Made by a program: the position numbers and the translations under genes. This document shows, piece by piece, positions 57,268 to 64,000 of a stretch of DNA of 64,000 nucleotides. This DNA is from Phlyctochytrium arcticum (taxonomy: Eukaryota; Chytridiomycota; Chytridiomycetes; Chytridiales; Chytridiaceae): assembly GCA_025602905.1 (NCBI GenBank), contig JAHLKI010000010.1, forward strand, positions 124,001 to 188,000, read 5' to 3'. The notes beneath the pieces are model-generated. The model saw only the letters and a program-made list of their open reading frames with translations, was not told the origin of the DNA and made no database searches. How positions within the stretch are numbered: position 1 is the stretch's first letter; each line of letters opens with the position of its first letter.

Positions 57268-57757
57268 ATATCCTGCGCGAATTCCAGTTCAAGCTGCTCG
57301 CAAGAACTCTAGGCGCCCTTGGCCTGGTGACGAGATACTTCCGGTTGATTGTTCGTTAACGGCCTCCACTAATAGTACTGAACACGACGTGAGAGCTGTC
57401 GTTCACGGCGCAAAATCGAATGCTGACCTAATTACATCCGCTCGTATGCAGCAGTCAGCCCAGTAGCCAAAACCCAAACTTGCCCAGTTGCTATAAACGG
57501 AGACACACCCGTTTGGCACGCGGAAGTTAAAATTATAGGAGATTTGAATGAAATAGAACGTATGACTCTAAAGCGAGAAAGTATCTGCTGGTTTTAATTC
57601 GACAGAATCTCTGCTTTGCCTTTTCAAATTTAGCTTACTTGCTGGCGATGATCGTCCTGGGAAGACGACCGACCAAGGCGGAAACGCGCTGACATTCCGA
57701 CAAGCTGTCGTAAGCCTGCGCCACAGAACATTGTCATCACTTCCATAATATTTCCAA
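57268..57757. promoter_or_regulatory. Divergent promoter region, PKA catalytic subunit / multi-pass membrane protein
   Basis: 490 bp between opposite starts; a + strand open frame overlapping the PKA first exon is a shadow. No specific element identified. Confidence 0.4.
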
Positions 57758-58807
57758 TTGCCTACCACCACCATGCCAAGACGGAATTCTTTTGGCACAG
57801 GCCCACTTGTCGACAATGGGCCGCTGTGGATAAGTCTTAGTTACACCCTTGGATCTTTTCTATTCCTGCTCAGCGCGGCTCTTGGTTATGCTGCGTCCAT
57901 ACCCCTCACTGCTACATATGCACACTTGCTTTGGTCTAACCTTACGTTTCTTGTCGGATGTATCTTTTTCACCGTTACAATCTCGATCGAGTTTACATCT
58001 GCCACGCCTCCATCGTTCTCCGAGCTTTGGCCCCACTTTTGTCCTCCAAAAAAAGTCGCACCAGCAGTTCCATCGAATTTGAACAGTAGCATTTTCAATC
58101 ATGATGGAAAACCAACGCAACGGCGTGTGCATCCGGAAAGCAAGCTTGTTGTGGAAGACTTGACGAAATTAGATGATGAACTGCTGTGGGATAGCGCGGC
58201 AAGTTCAGAAATTACAACGTCCGGCAGTTTCGATTTGGCGAAGCAGGAATATACTGAGAAGCAGCTTTCTGCGCACAATTCGTCCAGCCTATACCTCTGG
58301 TTTGCGACCTTTTTTTACTTGGTCGGTATATTCTTCTTTGATATGGAAGCTATCACGCTTCTTCTTGTATCAGCACCTGGCATCACCTTACAGATTCAAA
58401 CTCTTGAACATGCTACGGACCTCGTATCTCGATTGGGCATTTACTTCTGCAGCCTGTTGGGATCACTGGGATTTCTTTTAGGAGTTATCTTTTCTCTGTG
58501 TGGTTTGCTGAAAACAACAACCCTGCCTGCACTTTGTCGGCAGCCGAATTTCTATACTTTATTCTGCTTCTTCTGGGGCTCAGTGGCTTTCTTAATCGGC
58601 AGTCTTCCAGGCCTGTACGACTTGAACCGAATAAGTATTCAGAATACGTGTGTGCCTTGGCTTATCGGCAGTGCTCTATACACTGTTGGGAGCCTCTTCA
58701 TGGTTTTATCCACTCAAATGGAGGTCCGTCAGAGTGAGAGCTATAAGTTACAACGCCCACCATCCGTACAACGGGCACAATCAGCTTTAGGGGTTACAAT
58801 TGTATAG
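57758..58807 (+). CDS. Multi-pass membrane protein with repeated GS-L/F-F helices (YrhK-like)
   Basis: Single exon, 349 aa. Helices come in pairs beginning with a Gly-Ser motif: SYTLGSFLFLLSAALGYA, NLTFLVGCIFFTVTISIEF, FYLVGIFFFDMEAITLL, SLLGSLGFLLGVIFSLCGLL, FFWGSVAFLIGSLPGLYDL, LIGSALYTVGSLFMVLSTQM; about eight segments in total. A ~90-residue soluble loop (Pro, Ser, Asp-rich) separates the first pair from the rest. The repeating pattern resembles the YrhK-like domain seen in uncharacterised fungal membrane proteins. Function unknown. The gene converges with the esterase-ABC gene across only 56 bp. Confidence 0.7.
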   Translation: MPTTTMPRRNSFGTGPLVDNGPLWISLSYTLGSFLFLLSAALGYAASIPLTATYAHLLWSNLTFLVGCIFFTVTISIEFTSATPPSFSELWPHFCPPKKVAPAVPSNLNSSIFNHDGKPTQRRVHPESKLVVEDLTKLDDELLWDSAASSEITTSGSFDLAKQEYTEKQLSAHNSSSLYLWFATFFYLVGIFFFDMEAITLLLVSAPGITLQIQTLEHATDLVSRLGIYFCSLLGSLGFLLGVIFSLCGLLKTTTLPALCRQPNFYTLFCFFWGSVAFLIGSLPGLYDLNRISIQNTCVPWLIGSALYTVGSLFMVLSTQMEVRQSESYKLQRPPSVQRAQSALGVTIV

Positions 58808-58863: not shown

Positions 58864-61800
58864 TTACAGAGGATTCTCTATATCCTGCTGCGCAGTAGCC
58901 ATGGCTGCATCCAAAAAGCCCTCATCAAAATTTCCCACAGAATCCCCCGTTTGTGTTCCCATTTCCTTCTTCAAAGCGCCGTCAAGAACCTTTTGGCTTG
59001 CTCGAACCCAAGCAGAGGGCCCGAATTTGCGCTTGTTCGCGTTCCAGAATGTATCCCAATATGCGTCGCGCAGCAACAAGAGAAATTGGATCGTTCTCAT
59101 GGCGAGCCAGATCAGTGCTAATGATACAATACCTTGTCCCGGTGGAATTTTGTCCGTCCTGGCTTCTTCCACAATGACATCGCCAATCGTCGCATGGCAA
59201 TATCCACCTCTTTGAAATATGCACTCTCCCACCCCGGCAGCATTCGCTCTGATCAAAGGCGACAACGCCCAGAAGGTTGGATTGAGATACTGAAACCAGG
59301 CAATCCAATCGTATACGCTCGAGTCACCCTTTTTAATCCAGATACCACTGGTGATCGCAAGAACGGCTTGAGAGAAAAAAGCCACACTTCTAGCCTCAGG
59401 ACGGCCCAGGCGCGTGCAGTATACCAGGGTAAACAGTGTGGTGGTGCAGTTGTAGTAGAGTAAAAAAATGGAAAGCACGGTCCCAATGCGACTAGGATCT
59501 GGATTGCACTCTAGAATGAAATATGCAGATATCACGGCAGCAAGCCCTTCCATGGTTGCCATCGCCGTTTCATATAGCAGCCGATGGCAGAAAAATGCTA
59601 TTGGGCTGATCGATCCATTCTCCGAGTCATTGTTATAGACATCGCGATCCTCATAGTAGTCGAAGGAAATATGAATATTCTTTAGTGCTGGAAGACCCAC
59701 GCATGCTTTTGAAAAATTGTTTTAGAATTTCAATTCTGTCGCAACAAATTGCGCAGCATACCTAATGCAAGTCCCTTGGTTTGTAAAACAATAGAAAGAG
59801 CATCATTACCAGGACGCCTTTGTAATAATGCGAGAAGCCATACTCCCCCACCAGATATAATCATCATGTTGAATTTCCTCCTGACTGGTCGAGTTGTCCA
59901 CCATCTGGATGCGATGATAAAAATCTGCTTAACTGGCCATGGCTTGATGTTTTTGCTCCGAATCTTAAGTGTCTTGCCGCTGGATATTTTTAGGGCCTCC
60001 ATAGACCCGGCTGCTGCAATCGTAGTAACTGCGGGAGGTAGAGTGAATCCGCGGTGCGTCGAAGTATCAGGTTGTACAGAGGTTTTGTTTTTGAAAGGAA
60101 AAGTGATACTTAAAGAGCTACGCTTCTTGGCAGTATCGCTGCTGCCTTTACTATAGGGCAAGTATTCCAGCGCTAGTATTGGCGATGGTGCGACATCTTT
60201 CCCGACGACATCCATCCAAGATTCGTTACGAGTGATTGCTAGGTGTCCCTCCGGACGTTGATCACGCTCAACATACTCGTCCCATTGGCTACTTGCCCAG
60301 GCGGCATTGCGGGGACGAATAGCTCCTGCCACGTCCATGATAAGATCTGCAGGGTTCGCCTCATCAGCTTTTTTGCCGTCTTTAGCTTCATCTGCATCTT
60401 CTTCTTCTTCAAGAACCGCAGCATTGGTTTCCTTTTCCACAAGTTTGTTCCGGAGATATAAGAAAAAACTTTCGGATCCTTCGGGAGTGTTCGCATATAA
60501 TAACCGGCCGTAGACCAGCACCACTACCTGAGAGAAAAGCCGGAACATTTCCGGACGGGGTTGATGAATTGAAACAACTACCGTATAGCCCTGCCCCGCC
60601 AGCTGCGACAATGCAATACCAACGTCAAGAGTCGATTTTGCATCTGATTAGGCAGAGTGAGTAGATGACTTTTTTTTTGAACCGCAAATTTCGAATACCT
60701 AATCCTGATGTGGGTTCATCCAAAAACAAAACGCTGGGCTTCTTGAGAAGGGCAACTGCAATGGATAAACGTCTCATCTGACCTCCAGATATGCCGCCTT
60801 GATTATGCTCCGGTCTTTGAATCACCACGTCCGCGCAGGATGTTAAATTCAATAGGTTAAGAAGACGATCGATTCGACTGCTGCGCTGCGCATGAGTCCT
60901 TGTCACTGGTAGCTTGAAGCAAAACCAATTCAATAATTGCTAATGCTTTTTACCATCGTGAGAACCTTACCTCCAGTAGTGAATTGAAAATCATGACCTC
61001 ACGAACTGTGAGACCATAGTAAGGTGGGTCATGCTGAGGCACAAAGCCCGTCATAAATCGAAAAGCTGTAGCGCTGTAGGAAGATAGGGGCTGTCCCGCG
61101 AATAGAATCTTTTCTTGCGGAGCAGAGGCTTTCAAGCGACGATTGAGCTAGGCCGCTGTATCAGTAACTGTCAAATGACTCAACCCGCTTACTAACCAAT
61201 GATAGTAAAGTTGTCTTCCCTGCTCCACTGGGACCCATGATGGCGGTAATCGTACCTGGTTCACATTTGAAGGACACCGCATCTAACAGTCTCTTTCCAT
61301 TTGCGACATCCCCTGCTCGGTAAGTGACGTTCTTGCACTCTAACATCACAGGACGTGGCATCTCCTCGGGGCCCATAGTTTGATATTTCGACATGGATGG
61401 TTTCCGACCCTTTTCATCATTTAAACCTTCTTCCGAAGCACATATTACACGAAAGAGCCGCCGGAAATGGTACCGTAGCGCAAAGCTGCCGAGCAGGAGA
61501 AACAAGTTTGTTCCTAAAAAAAAGCCGACCATACTAATTGCGACGCCTAGAACAGGGACCGAAAGGCCGGCAGATTTCTTCTGTAGACTGTAGATGTATG
61601 AATCTTCAAACCTTGGCGAAAATTGATAACCTTGTCGGTCCCACAGATCGCATTTCTCTGCTAGTGGGTGTATCTTGTCAAGAATAGGAGTATAAGAGGT
61701 GTTGGCTAATGCTTGCGCAGCTGGAAAACGCAGCACAGTGAACTCAGAAAGCGTTGCGGGCAGCCACGGTGGGTCACTGATTGTTAGATCAAGATCGTGC

Positions 61801-63386
61801 ACAAAGCTATGAAAATAGGAGCGAAAGGCGTCTCCCACCGGTTGAGAGACCGCTTGGTATATTATTAGTGAATGCAATATGGTAAGAGCGCGCAAAACTT
61901 TACCAACCATCACTTGGGGTCCTGAATAGGTATGATAGATCGGTGGTATGACAAGCATGGTCATCGCAAATATTGCCCAAAGGTTCGTCGGAGCCACCAA
62001 GCCAGGGTGCCTCGAATATGTACGATCGCACAGTGGTGGACAGTGAGGCGCGAATCGACTTGCGCAGCGGGCAGAGGAACAGCCAATCGCCGATCATGTC
62101 AGTAAGATGAGGCTTTCGATCGGCTAGATAGTCATCATTCTCAGCATTATACACTTGCTGGACAGCTTTCGCATTGGGAGCAAATAAGGCATCGCTAGAA
62201 AACACTTTAGTCACAAAACGACGCGAATCTCGTACATACTTACAGCGCAACATTGAACATTCCCGAACTGACCTCTCCGGAAAACGCCTCTTTTAGAAAC
62301 AAGTATGCTTCGTAGCTGACACCACCGATCTGGGCAAATGATGAGATAGGTGAGCATCAGTGTAAAGACGACATTGATGCTTACAATGGCTTGAACACCA
62401 TTAGTTACGTGGGCGTCCCCAAGAATATCAAAGGGGTTAAGGATAATGTCTACGCCATCCATCACGGGTGCCATTGACTTGATCTCAATTTTTGCCAATT
62501 TTTTTTCTGTGTCGTCGTCCTCTTCCGCAGCATTGAGTACTGCACGCATAGACTTGTCTCGAAGACATGTCACAGCTGCGCATTTTAAAGATTTTGCTAA
62601 CTTGGCGGCCAATTCTTGACTTTCGAGACGCGTCGATAGCTTTATTGCCGGAGGACTCATCAAAAAGACTTTGGATATCTGCTCTCTTGTCGCTTGATCC
62701 GCCAGATGCATTAAAATCGATTGTGCTCCAGCCGACTGACCTAAGAAAGTGCTTCTTGAAAAGTTCCCACCGAATGAATGAATGTCTCGTGCAATCCATT
62801 TGAGTGCCACACGTTGATCCAGCAGCCCAAAGTTGGTCGTCTGTGCTGTGTTATCCAAAGCGCTTAAATCAAGGAAGCCTAAGACTCCCAGACGGTAGTT
62901 GAACGACACTACAATAGCATTCATGCGCAGCGCCAGTTCTGCGCCATCGTAAGCAGCCATCCCCGCTCCCCCAAATTGAAAGGAACCTCCATGAAAGAAG
63001 ACGATCACTGGCAGAGATGTAGATGTAGAATTGATCTCTGATGCATTGTTGAAAGGGGTCCATATGTTCAAAAACAGGCAATCTTCCGCAATCGTTTCCG
63101 GGCATAATACCGTCTGGCATATTTGCGGGCAATTACTTCCAAAATAGAGTGCGTCTGACGCTGCTGTGTTGTTGTCAAGGTTTGCGGTTGCCCACCGCAC
63201 GGCTTCTCCGTATCTAATTCCAAGAAATTCGAAAGCACCTAATTTGTTCAATCGACCCCGAACGGACCCCCCCAAAGATAAGTTGACCGTCGCAAATTCA
63301 TTTACGTTGGATGAGGCAATAGATACCCAGAGGAAAGGGAAAATCAGGAAAAATGCCTTGGCTACTATGCCACTAATCTTGGCCAT
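58864..63386 (-). CDS. Carboxylesterase-ABCG transporter fusion protein
   Basis: Eight exons: 63386-62385, 62329-62244, 62194-61908, 61852-61197, 61147-60971, 60912-60699, 60643-59762, 59705-58864; 1381 aa, in frame. A signal peptide ([15 protein letters not shown]) precedes a carboxylesterase/cholinesterase-fold domain, ~30-540: [25 protein letters not shown], nucleophile GQSAG (Ser218), likely Glu near 341 (VSYEAYLF) and His near 444 ([10 protein letters not shown]). A helix at ~552-583 follows, then an ABCG NBD: Walker [10 protein letters not shown] (~665), FVPQHD, signature [12 protein letters not shown], Walker [14 protein letters not shown]-loop SIHQPR. The C-terminal ~360 residues are an ABCG membrane domain ([12 protein letters not shown]). 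N-glycosylation sequons lie in the esterase part. Exon 61852-61197 alone encodes the esterase tail, the helix and Walker A, so fusion is not an assembly of neighbouring genes. Confidence 0.9.
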
Positions 63387-63777: not shown

Positions 63778-64000
63778 CTAGTCCGCTCCACACAACAGAC
63801 AAACTCCACCAAGAATCCATTTCTGTGGTCGCTCTTTGGTTTTCAAATTAAATGTCCATACGAAAGTAGGCCCACGTTGGCGTGTGCGATACACGGGGCA
63901 CTCATACACCCCTTTAGTATCTTTTTTGTCGACGGGTATAGCTTTGATGTATATTACTGGCATCGCTGGGGTGAGTTCTTTGAGCAGACTCTCCTGGATG
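63778..64000 (-). CDS. C-terminal end of an axonemal dynein heavy chain (partial)
   Basis: The last 73 or so codons of a gene that continues past the right edge, ending at 63778. The peptide ESLLKELTPAMPVIYIKAIP ... YECPVYRTRQRGPTFVWTFN ... KERPQKWILGGVCLL is the characteristic final beta-barrel of dynein heavy chains. The RGPTxVWTFNLKTKE wording is that of outer-arm beta/gamma-type axonemal chains rather than cytoplasmic dynein; that subtype call is from memory of the family. The protein drives flagellar beating. Confidence 0.88.
   Translation of the reverse strand, partial: IQESLLKELTPAMPVIYIKAIPVDKKDTKGVYECPVYRTRQRGPTFVWTFNLKTKERPQKWILGGVCLLCGAD

Follow-up and report, generated by a model that had tools for sequence, protein, structure and literature searches.

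We describe a predicted protein of the chytrid Phlyctochytrium arcticum in which a secreted-type carboxylesterase is joined to an ABCG half-transporter of the ATP-binding cassette (ABC) superfamily. Its gene lies on the minus strand at positions 58864 to 63386 of the window, the whole 64,000-nucleotide stretch analysed here. The two halves meet in one uninterrupted frame within a single internal exon, the same layout recurs in other chytrids, and the residues expected for ester hydrolysis and for ATP binding are retained. The fusion architecture is almost certainly real, and the kept pairing together with the active site suggests, as far as sequence can indicate, that the two halves work together.

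Gene structure and the two halves

An independent splice model treats 63386..58864 on the minus strand as one gene of eight exons and seven GT-AG introns of 49-58 bp, encoding 1381 amino acids (aa). The first-pass annotation of this DNA, made from the letters alone, had proposed a single gene with the same ends and length, and the model reproduces it. The features are as follows.

58864..63386, minus: whole gene, start to stop codon (splice model; junctions compared with relatives)
62385..63386, minus: exon 1, aa 1-334 (splice model)
62244..62329, minus: exon 2, aa 335-363, last codon shared (splice model)
61908..62194, minus: exon 3, aa 363-459, end codons shared (splice model)
61197..61852, minus: exon 4, aa 459-677, first codon shared; esterase C-terminus, membrane helix and Walker A in one frame (open reading frame and splice model)
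60971..61147, minus: exon 5, aa 678-736 (splice model)
60699..60912, minus: exon 6, aa 737-808, last codon shared (splice model)
59762..60643, minus: exon 7, aa 808-1102, end codons shared (splice model)
58864..59705, minus: exon 8, aa 1102-1381 and stop (splice model)
63309..63386, minus: likely signal peptide, aa 1-26, hydrophobic core 6-24 (hydropathy; cleavage site putative)
61758..63290, minus: carboxylesterase domain, aa 33-490, exons 1-4 (Pfam)
62733..62735, minus: codon of predicted catalytic Ser218, in GQSAG (alignment with solved esterases)
62309..62311, minus: codon of predicted catalytic Glu341 (alignment with solved esterases)
61948..61950, minus: codon of predicted catalytic His445, in C-x4-CHTTD (alignment; near-invariant esterase His column)
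61515..61571, minus: membrane helix between esterase and ATPase, aa 553-571 (hydropathy)
60704..61286, minus: ABC ATPase domain, aa 648-805, exons 4-6 (Pfam)
61212..61235, minus: Walker A, GPSGAGKT, aa 665-672 (family alignment)
60778..60792, minus: ABC signature, ISGGQ, aa 777-781 (family alignment)
58975..59888, minus: ABCG membrane domain, about aa 1060-1345 (Pfam match 1108-1252; outer limits set by us)

The exon that physically joins the two halves is exon 4. As had been noted earlier, it holds the esterase C-terminus and the Walker A motif in one frame, which is open throughout, shares codon 459 with exon 3, and spans both the helix at 553-571 and Walker A at 665-672. In the covering rows of nine relatives none of the seven junctions shows a gap at the joint, with the exception of an insertion in P0004 at junction 7. 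The donor of intron 3, GTTGGT at 61907, is weak and unusual, yet it keeps the frame and is consistent with the relatives; a rival donor, GTAAAG, lies four bases downstream and, used with the same acceptor, breaks the frame. If intron 3 is retained, the frame stops at 61900, shortly past the active-site His. Mis-splicing or retention at 61907-61898 would thus truncate the protein past a complete triad and ahead of the membrane helix, and a Fimicolochytrium record (P0241) terminates at the same intron-3 position.

A Pfam search gives the order that the annotation had predicted, every match being above its cut-off: COesterase at 33-490 (243.7 bits, cut-off 27), ABC_tran at 648-805 (102.3 bits, cut-off 25) and ABC2_membrane at 1108-1252 (40 bits, cut-off 26.9). 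The ATPase precedes the membrane domain, which is the ABCG half-transporter layout. Hydropathy agrees with the signal-peptide-like N-terminus and the membrane helix described before, with a hydrophobic stretch at aa 6-24 and a single helix ahead of the ATPase at aa 553-571.

The esterase appears to have kept its active site. By alignment the catalytic residues would be Ser218, Glu341 and His445: the Ser and Glu line up with those of solved acetylcholinesterases, which we take to be the catalytic ones, and the His aligns with a near-invariant His of 37 esterases. The serine and glutamate are those first proposed, while the histidine, earlier placed at about 444, is His445. Across the covering rows of a 26-row family alignment the Ser is kept in 19 of 19, the Glu in 18 of 18 and the His in 22 of 22; the oxyanion Gly-Gly is present in 18 of 18 and its preceding His in 17 of 18. 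Profile score, Ser-Glu-His triad and oxyanion Gly-Gly all place the domain, on sequence, among the type-B carboxylesterases (PF00135). An active enzyme has seemingly been kept, for the triad is conserved despite a mean esterase identity to the P. arcticum fusion protein of only 41.4% (15 rows more than 80% covered), and the domain is very probably catalytically active. A pseudo-enzyme ectodomain was considered and rejected, the triad counts being intact in the covering rows.

Ten cysteine columns of the ectodomain are near-invariant (16 of 18 to 19 of 19 rows), which fits an oxidising compartment. The first disulfide loop, between the first conserved cysteines, is short (18-20 residues) and contains two extra Cys in nearly all family rows; Trp is absent from it in all 17 of the 17 rows that cover it. 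Because the Trp of this loop presumably makes the choline site of cholinesterases, its absence speaks against a cholinesterase or a choline-type site; our guess is a small, open-site esterase. The nearest solved structures are acetylcholinesterases and para-nitrobenzyl esterase. With these and bile-salt lipase the fusion has in common the type-B sequence family, the triad and the oxyanion HGG, but unlike them it has a short first loop with two extra Cys and no Trp, and is joined to an ABC protein. The combination of a four-Cys first loop and the C-x4-C-His pattern was found in one of 130 non-fused esterases tested (P0244), some of the 130 being fragments.

The transporter half bears out the description of an ABCG half-transporter with all ATP-site motifs, as Walker A, signature, Walker B and H-loop are all present. 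Among 23 ABC rows of the family, Walker A and DEPTSGLD are each found in 22 of 22 covering rows and the H-loop His in 23 of 23; the signature reads SGGQ in 20 of 22 covering rows and SAGQ in the other two. The solved structures closest to this part are ABCG25, CDR1/Pdr5 (yeast PDR pumps), ABCG2 and ABCG5/8. For the Spizellomyces and Boothiomyces relatives the best NCBIfam match is a pigment precursor permease, at 252 and 201 bits, far under the cut-off of 736. Where six membrane helices are expected of an ABCG half-transporter, plain hydropathy past the start of the ATPase counts four in the P. arcticum protein and two to seven in 21 relatives with Walker A, some of which are not true helices. 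Mean identity to the P. arcticum protein is 53.3% for the ATPase and 53.2% for the membrane domain (21 rows each), and 19.6% for the linking-helix stretch between the halves (20 rows).

Distribution and origin of the family

Relatives were collected from the best 120 of 294 matches to the full-length protein, the best 120 of 7306 matches to its ABC part, and the best 120 of 350 matches in a third search, with the number of candidates capped. Among the matches listed are eight proteins of the same layout, from Spizellomyces punctatus, Powellomyces, Geranomyces (three), Thoreauomyces, Boothiomyces and one more; the architecture is thus kept in other zoosporic fungi, where a search for it had been suggested. 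Six of the eight have an E value reported as 0, so the resemblance is beyond chance, and the S. punctatus relative is 57% identical over 97%. The ABC-part search added P0121-P0132, P0154 and P0165 among the matches listed. In 22 of the 23 collected ABC-bearing family rows, P. arcticum included, esterase sequence is found in the same predicted protein, and COesterase is called in 18 of the 23. Four records (P0121, P0122, P0126, P0154) start within the esterase, three of them ahead of the catalytic His. If close relatives always encoded the halves as two genes, the fusion would be in doubt; Spizellomyces, Powellomyces, Geranomyces and Thoreauomyces each have them in one protein, and among the matches listed only Fimicolochytrium appears as two records.

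All 16 named species looked up from the matches listed belong to the class Chytridiomycetes, one of them, Gaertneriomyces semiglobifer, with an esterase fragment only. They fall in the orders Spizellomycetales, Rhizophlyctidales, Rhizophydiales and Chytridiales (the last through Entophlyctis, whose row is without esterase), with two species of uncertain place; for Gaertneriomyces sp. JEL0708 and Boothiomyces sp. JEL0866 the placement is that of the genus.

Individual records vary. P0006 is without part of the ATPase, P0130 without Walker A and P0124 without the oxyanion stretch, gaps which look like missed exons. The Gaertneriomyces sp. JEL0708 protein (P0165) is a deep-branching fusion with PGG for HGG and GHGVD at the catalytic His, and is possibly a second fused paralogue. 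Quaeritorhiza has two fused records, P0131 and P0132, both with ISAGQ in place of ISGGQ. A Boothiomyces record (P0008) has a C-terminal ubiquitin domain that is not listed for its kin P0128, likely the product of a run-on gene model.

Each half forms one clade in our sampling, indicating one origin for each, as a single fusion would give. The ATPase tree (45 rows, 22 of the family; P0006 left out for its gap) puts the family on one side of a branch at 100/99, and the esterase tree (42 rows, 19 of the family; seven ABC-bearing members with too little esterase left out) gives a family clade at 100/98; the 23 outsiders in each were picked by us, and P0165 and several outsiders form long branches in the esterase tree. 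Quick trees of 67 and 80 rows agree, at 97 and 98. Related species group together in both trees, although some of the deep branches lack firm support and the two trees disagree there in details. This pattern is as expected of a single old fusion that would predate the parting of these chytrid orders. The non-fused esterase P0244 is sister to the fused esterases (97/95), with a residue make-up flagged as odd; lying on a contig of 2371 bases, it may be kin of the captured esterase or a cut-off fusion.

The 31.5 Mb of the P. arcticum genome yielded only three COesterase places, a single one of them fused: the fusion gene, a stand-alone esterase (L001) with no ABC match within 1.5 kb on either side, and a weak match in a broken frame. 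A second fusion at this third place (L003, wider L036) was rejected for its in-frame stops and the lack of an ABC match alongside; the frame beside it matches Peptidase_S9 and BD-FAE slightly below their cut-offs, and the place is an unclear hydrolase. Three further ABCG genes of the genome (L040, L041, L039) have, by eye, a hydrophobic helix ahead of the ATPase as in the fusion, with a clear Cys-rich stretch before the helix in L040 and L041. Pfam finds ABC_tran in all three and ABC2_membrane in L040 and L041 (L039 being read as a single exon); unlike the fusion, none has a Pfam COesterase match. A clade of the fusions with these three ectodomain ABCGs, which stand in for Adp1-type genes (see below) as a possible source of the fusion's ABC half, is absent from the best tree, but is not rejected (p-AU 0.256).

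Precedents and possible coupling of the two halves

The Dictyostelium Tag proteins had been offered as a precedent, and as described in PMC3743828 TagA/B/C do join a hydrolase that acts outside to an ABC transporter in one protein; they differ in pairing a serine protease with an ABCB-group transporter, as opposed to an esterase with ABCG. For TagC, the same paper reports that ABC activity is required for presenting the protease domain. Closer in layout are the Adp1-type fungal ABCG proteins (group VII of Kovalchuk and Driessen 2010), which, in the main text of PMC2848647, have a large soluble N-terminal domain and a central ATPase between two membrane parts, number up to six genes in the chytrid Spizellomyces punctatus, and are called enigmatic in function. 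The order of ectodomain, membrane helix, ATPase and membrane domain is common to both, whereas the Adp1 soluble domain consists of EGF repeats and that of the chytrid fusion is a COesterase without an EGF match; the words "esterase" and "hydrolase" appear nowhere in that main text. The statement that no esterase-ABCG fusion had been described is uncontradicted in the literature searched, which comprised titles and abstract openings outside subscription journals and preprints. The proteins themselves are already in public databases, where they are named for one half or not characterised ("uncharacterized", "hypothetical", "ABC transporter", "Carboxylesterase family-domain-containing"). The ectodomain slot in ABCG proteins is thus already known, and the intact esterase that fills it is, against the literature searched, new.

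We propose that the protein would sit in the plasma membrane or an endomembrane, as a secreted, disulfide-rich carboxylesterase followed by one helix and then by the ATPase and membrane domain of an ABCG protein. The signal peptide and the conserved cysteines would place the esterase outside. The half-transporter would pair, most simply with itself, and the dimer would have two complete ATP sites and carry a pair of esterase heads over the exit. An ester-bearing compound, which might be a lipid, a sterol ester or a secondary metabolite, would then be moved across the membrane by the pump and hydrolysed by the tethered esterase on leaving, so that the product is released and its return blocked. 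In this scheme we infer the outside location, the dimer, the catalysis, the shared substrate and the direction. Eukaryotic ABCG proteins are mostly exporters, and export followed by cleavage is favoured because most eukaryotic ABC proteins export. That the halves share a substrate in this way is a plausible reading, if one somewhat short of probable; more tentatively, hydrolysis may be coupled to transport, with the exporter's own esterase cleaving each emerging ester and making export one-way.

Several observations weigh against a conserved, jointly working fusion. The Entophlyctis protein P0127 has no esterase and starts at the ATPase, which may reflect genuine loss or a truncated gene model. 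P0165 has Pro in place of the His beside the oxyanion Gly-Gly. Sequons fail to separate the halves, with seven ahead of Walker A and six after it. A claim of an unusually conserved membrane domain is weakened by comparison with 133 ABCG units of other proteins, a control in which paralogues are mixed, stretches are not cut quite alike, and six family rows (P0006, P0130, P0154, P0241-P0243) are left out. Conservation after the ATPase is above this control where the ATPases are 30-55% identical (39.1 vs 29.2% in the 45-50 band, for instance), but membrane-domain conservation is about equal to it from 55% up, and the pump appears to be a typical, well-conserved ABCG. Finally, Fimicolochytrium presents two records, an esterase (P0241, 461 aa) and an ABC protein (P0121, 997 aa), for each of which the listed contig is 814,245 bases long. 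The last three residues of P0241, which stops at the position of intron 3, are odd, and P0121 starts with sequence of the esterase C-terminus, so that the split falls within the esterase and not between the domains. The pair fits one gene annotated as two, a true split being the alternative.

These two records, along with the weak intron 3 donor, are also what could be said for a wrong gene model that has merged two neighbouring genes. With both halves in one uninterrupted exon, the P0121/P0241 break inside the esterase, and the same layout in many separately annotated species among the matches listed, such an artefact is scarcely credible, and we reject it on the shared exon and on the junctions and layout in relatives. 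A non-catalytic ectodomain serving adhesion or sensing is also very improbable, as the triad is invariant in all covering rows of a family whose esterase half has a mean identity of 41.4% to the P. arcticum protein. The carboxylesterase fold does have several dead, adhesive members, such as neuroligin, and the idea draws on these. It is harder to set aside an esterase that acts independently at the surface while the ABC half carries, presents or regulates it, with no substrate in common. The TagC requirement sets a precedent for this and the joining stretch is poorly conserved, but the ATP motifs and membrane domain are kept as in a working pump, neither of which a plain anchor needs; we judge it unlikely, if credible.

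The remaining explanations would keep the two halves in one pathway and change its purpose or direction. Chytrids feed by absorption, and the esterase might cleave environmental esters at the surface for the ABCG half to import something that is released, for instance a sterol or fatty acid. The anatomy would be the same as for export, and some ABCG proteins, such as yeast Aus1 and Pdr11, do import; nevertheless, import is exceptional among eukaryotic ABC proteins and scavenging is distinctly unlikely. Detoxification genes usually expand, whereas this conserved family is low in copy, with one fused place here, two Quaeritorhiza records among the matches listed, and no expansion. This makes it improbable that the protein serves in efflux, with the ectodomain hydrolysing xenobiotic esters on the outer side, even though carboxylesterases and ABC pumps are both classed as detoxification genes in literature abstracts.

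By fusion the two activities are held at a single site and in a fixed ratio, which for an Adp1-like layout strongly hints at a common pathway. Should the esterase act on what the pump carries, as in export followed by cleavage, its activity would provide a handle on that cargo; for an orphan ABCG, the cargo is otherwise difficult to identify. The one-way coupling, if true, would be a eukaryotic small-molecule counterpart of peptidase-bearing exporters, and through it a cell-surface lipid or a signal particular to zoosporic fungi could be produced and released. Chytrids bearing the family have both free-living and parasitic life styles, and its presence in several orders means that it may serve the basic biology of zoosporic fungi.

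Neighbouring sequence

Tail to tail with the fusion gene lies an open frame of 352 aa on the plus strand (57749-58807) with several hydrophobic stretches; no Pfam match was found in 57773-58804. On the other side, just past the end of the window and on the same strand as the fusion, is a sequence (L038) that reads as a dynein heavy chain, with Pfam motor, stalk and C-terminal domains, and the open frame at 63778-64000 on the minus strand looks like its end. If axonemal, this dynein would fit a flagellated organism.

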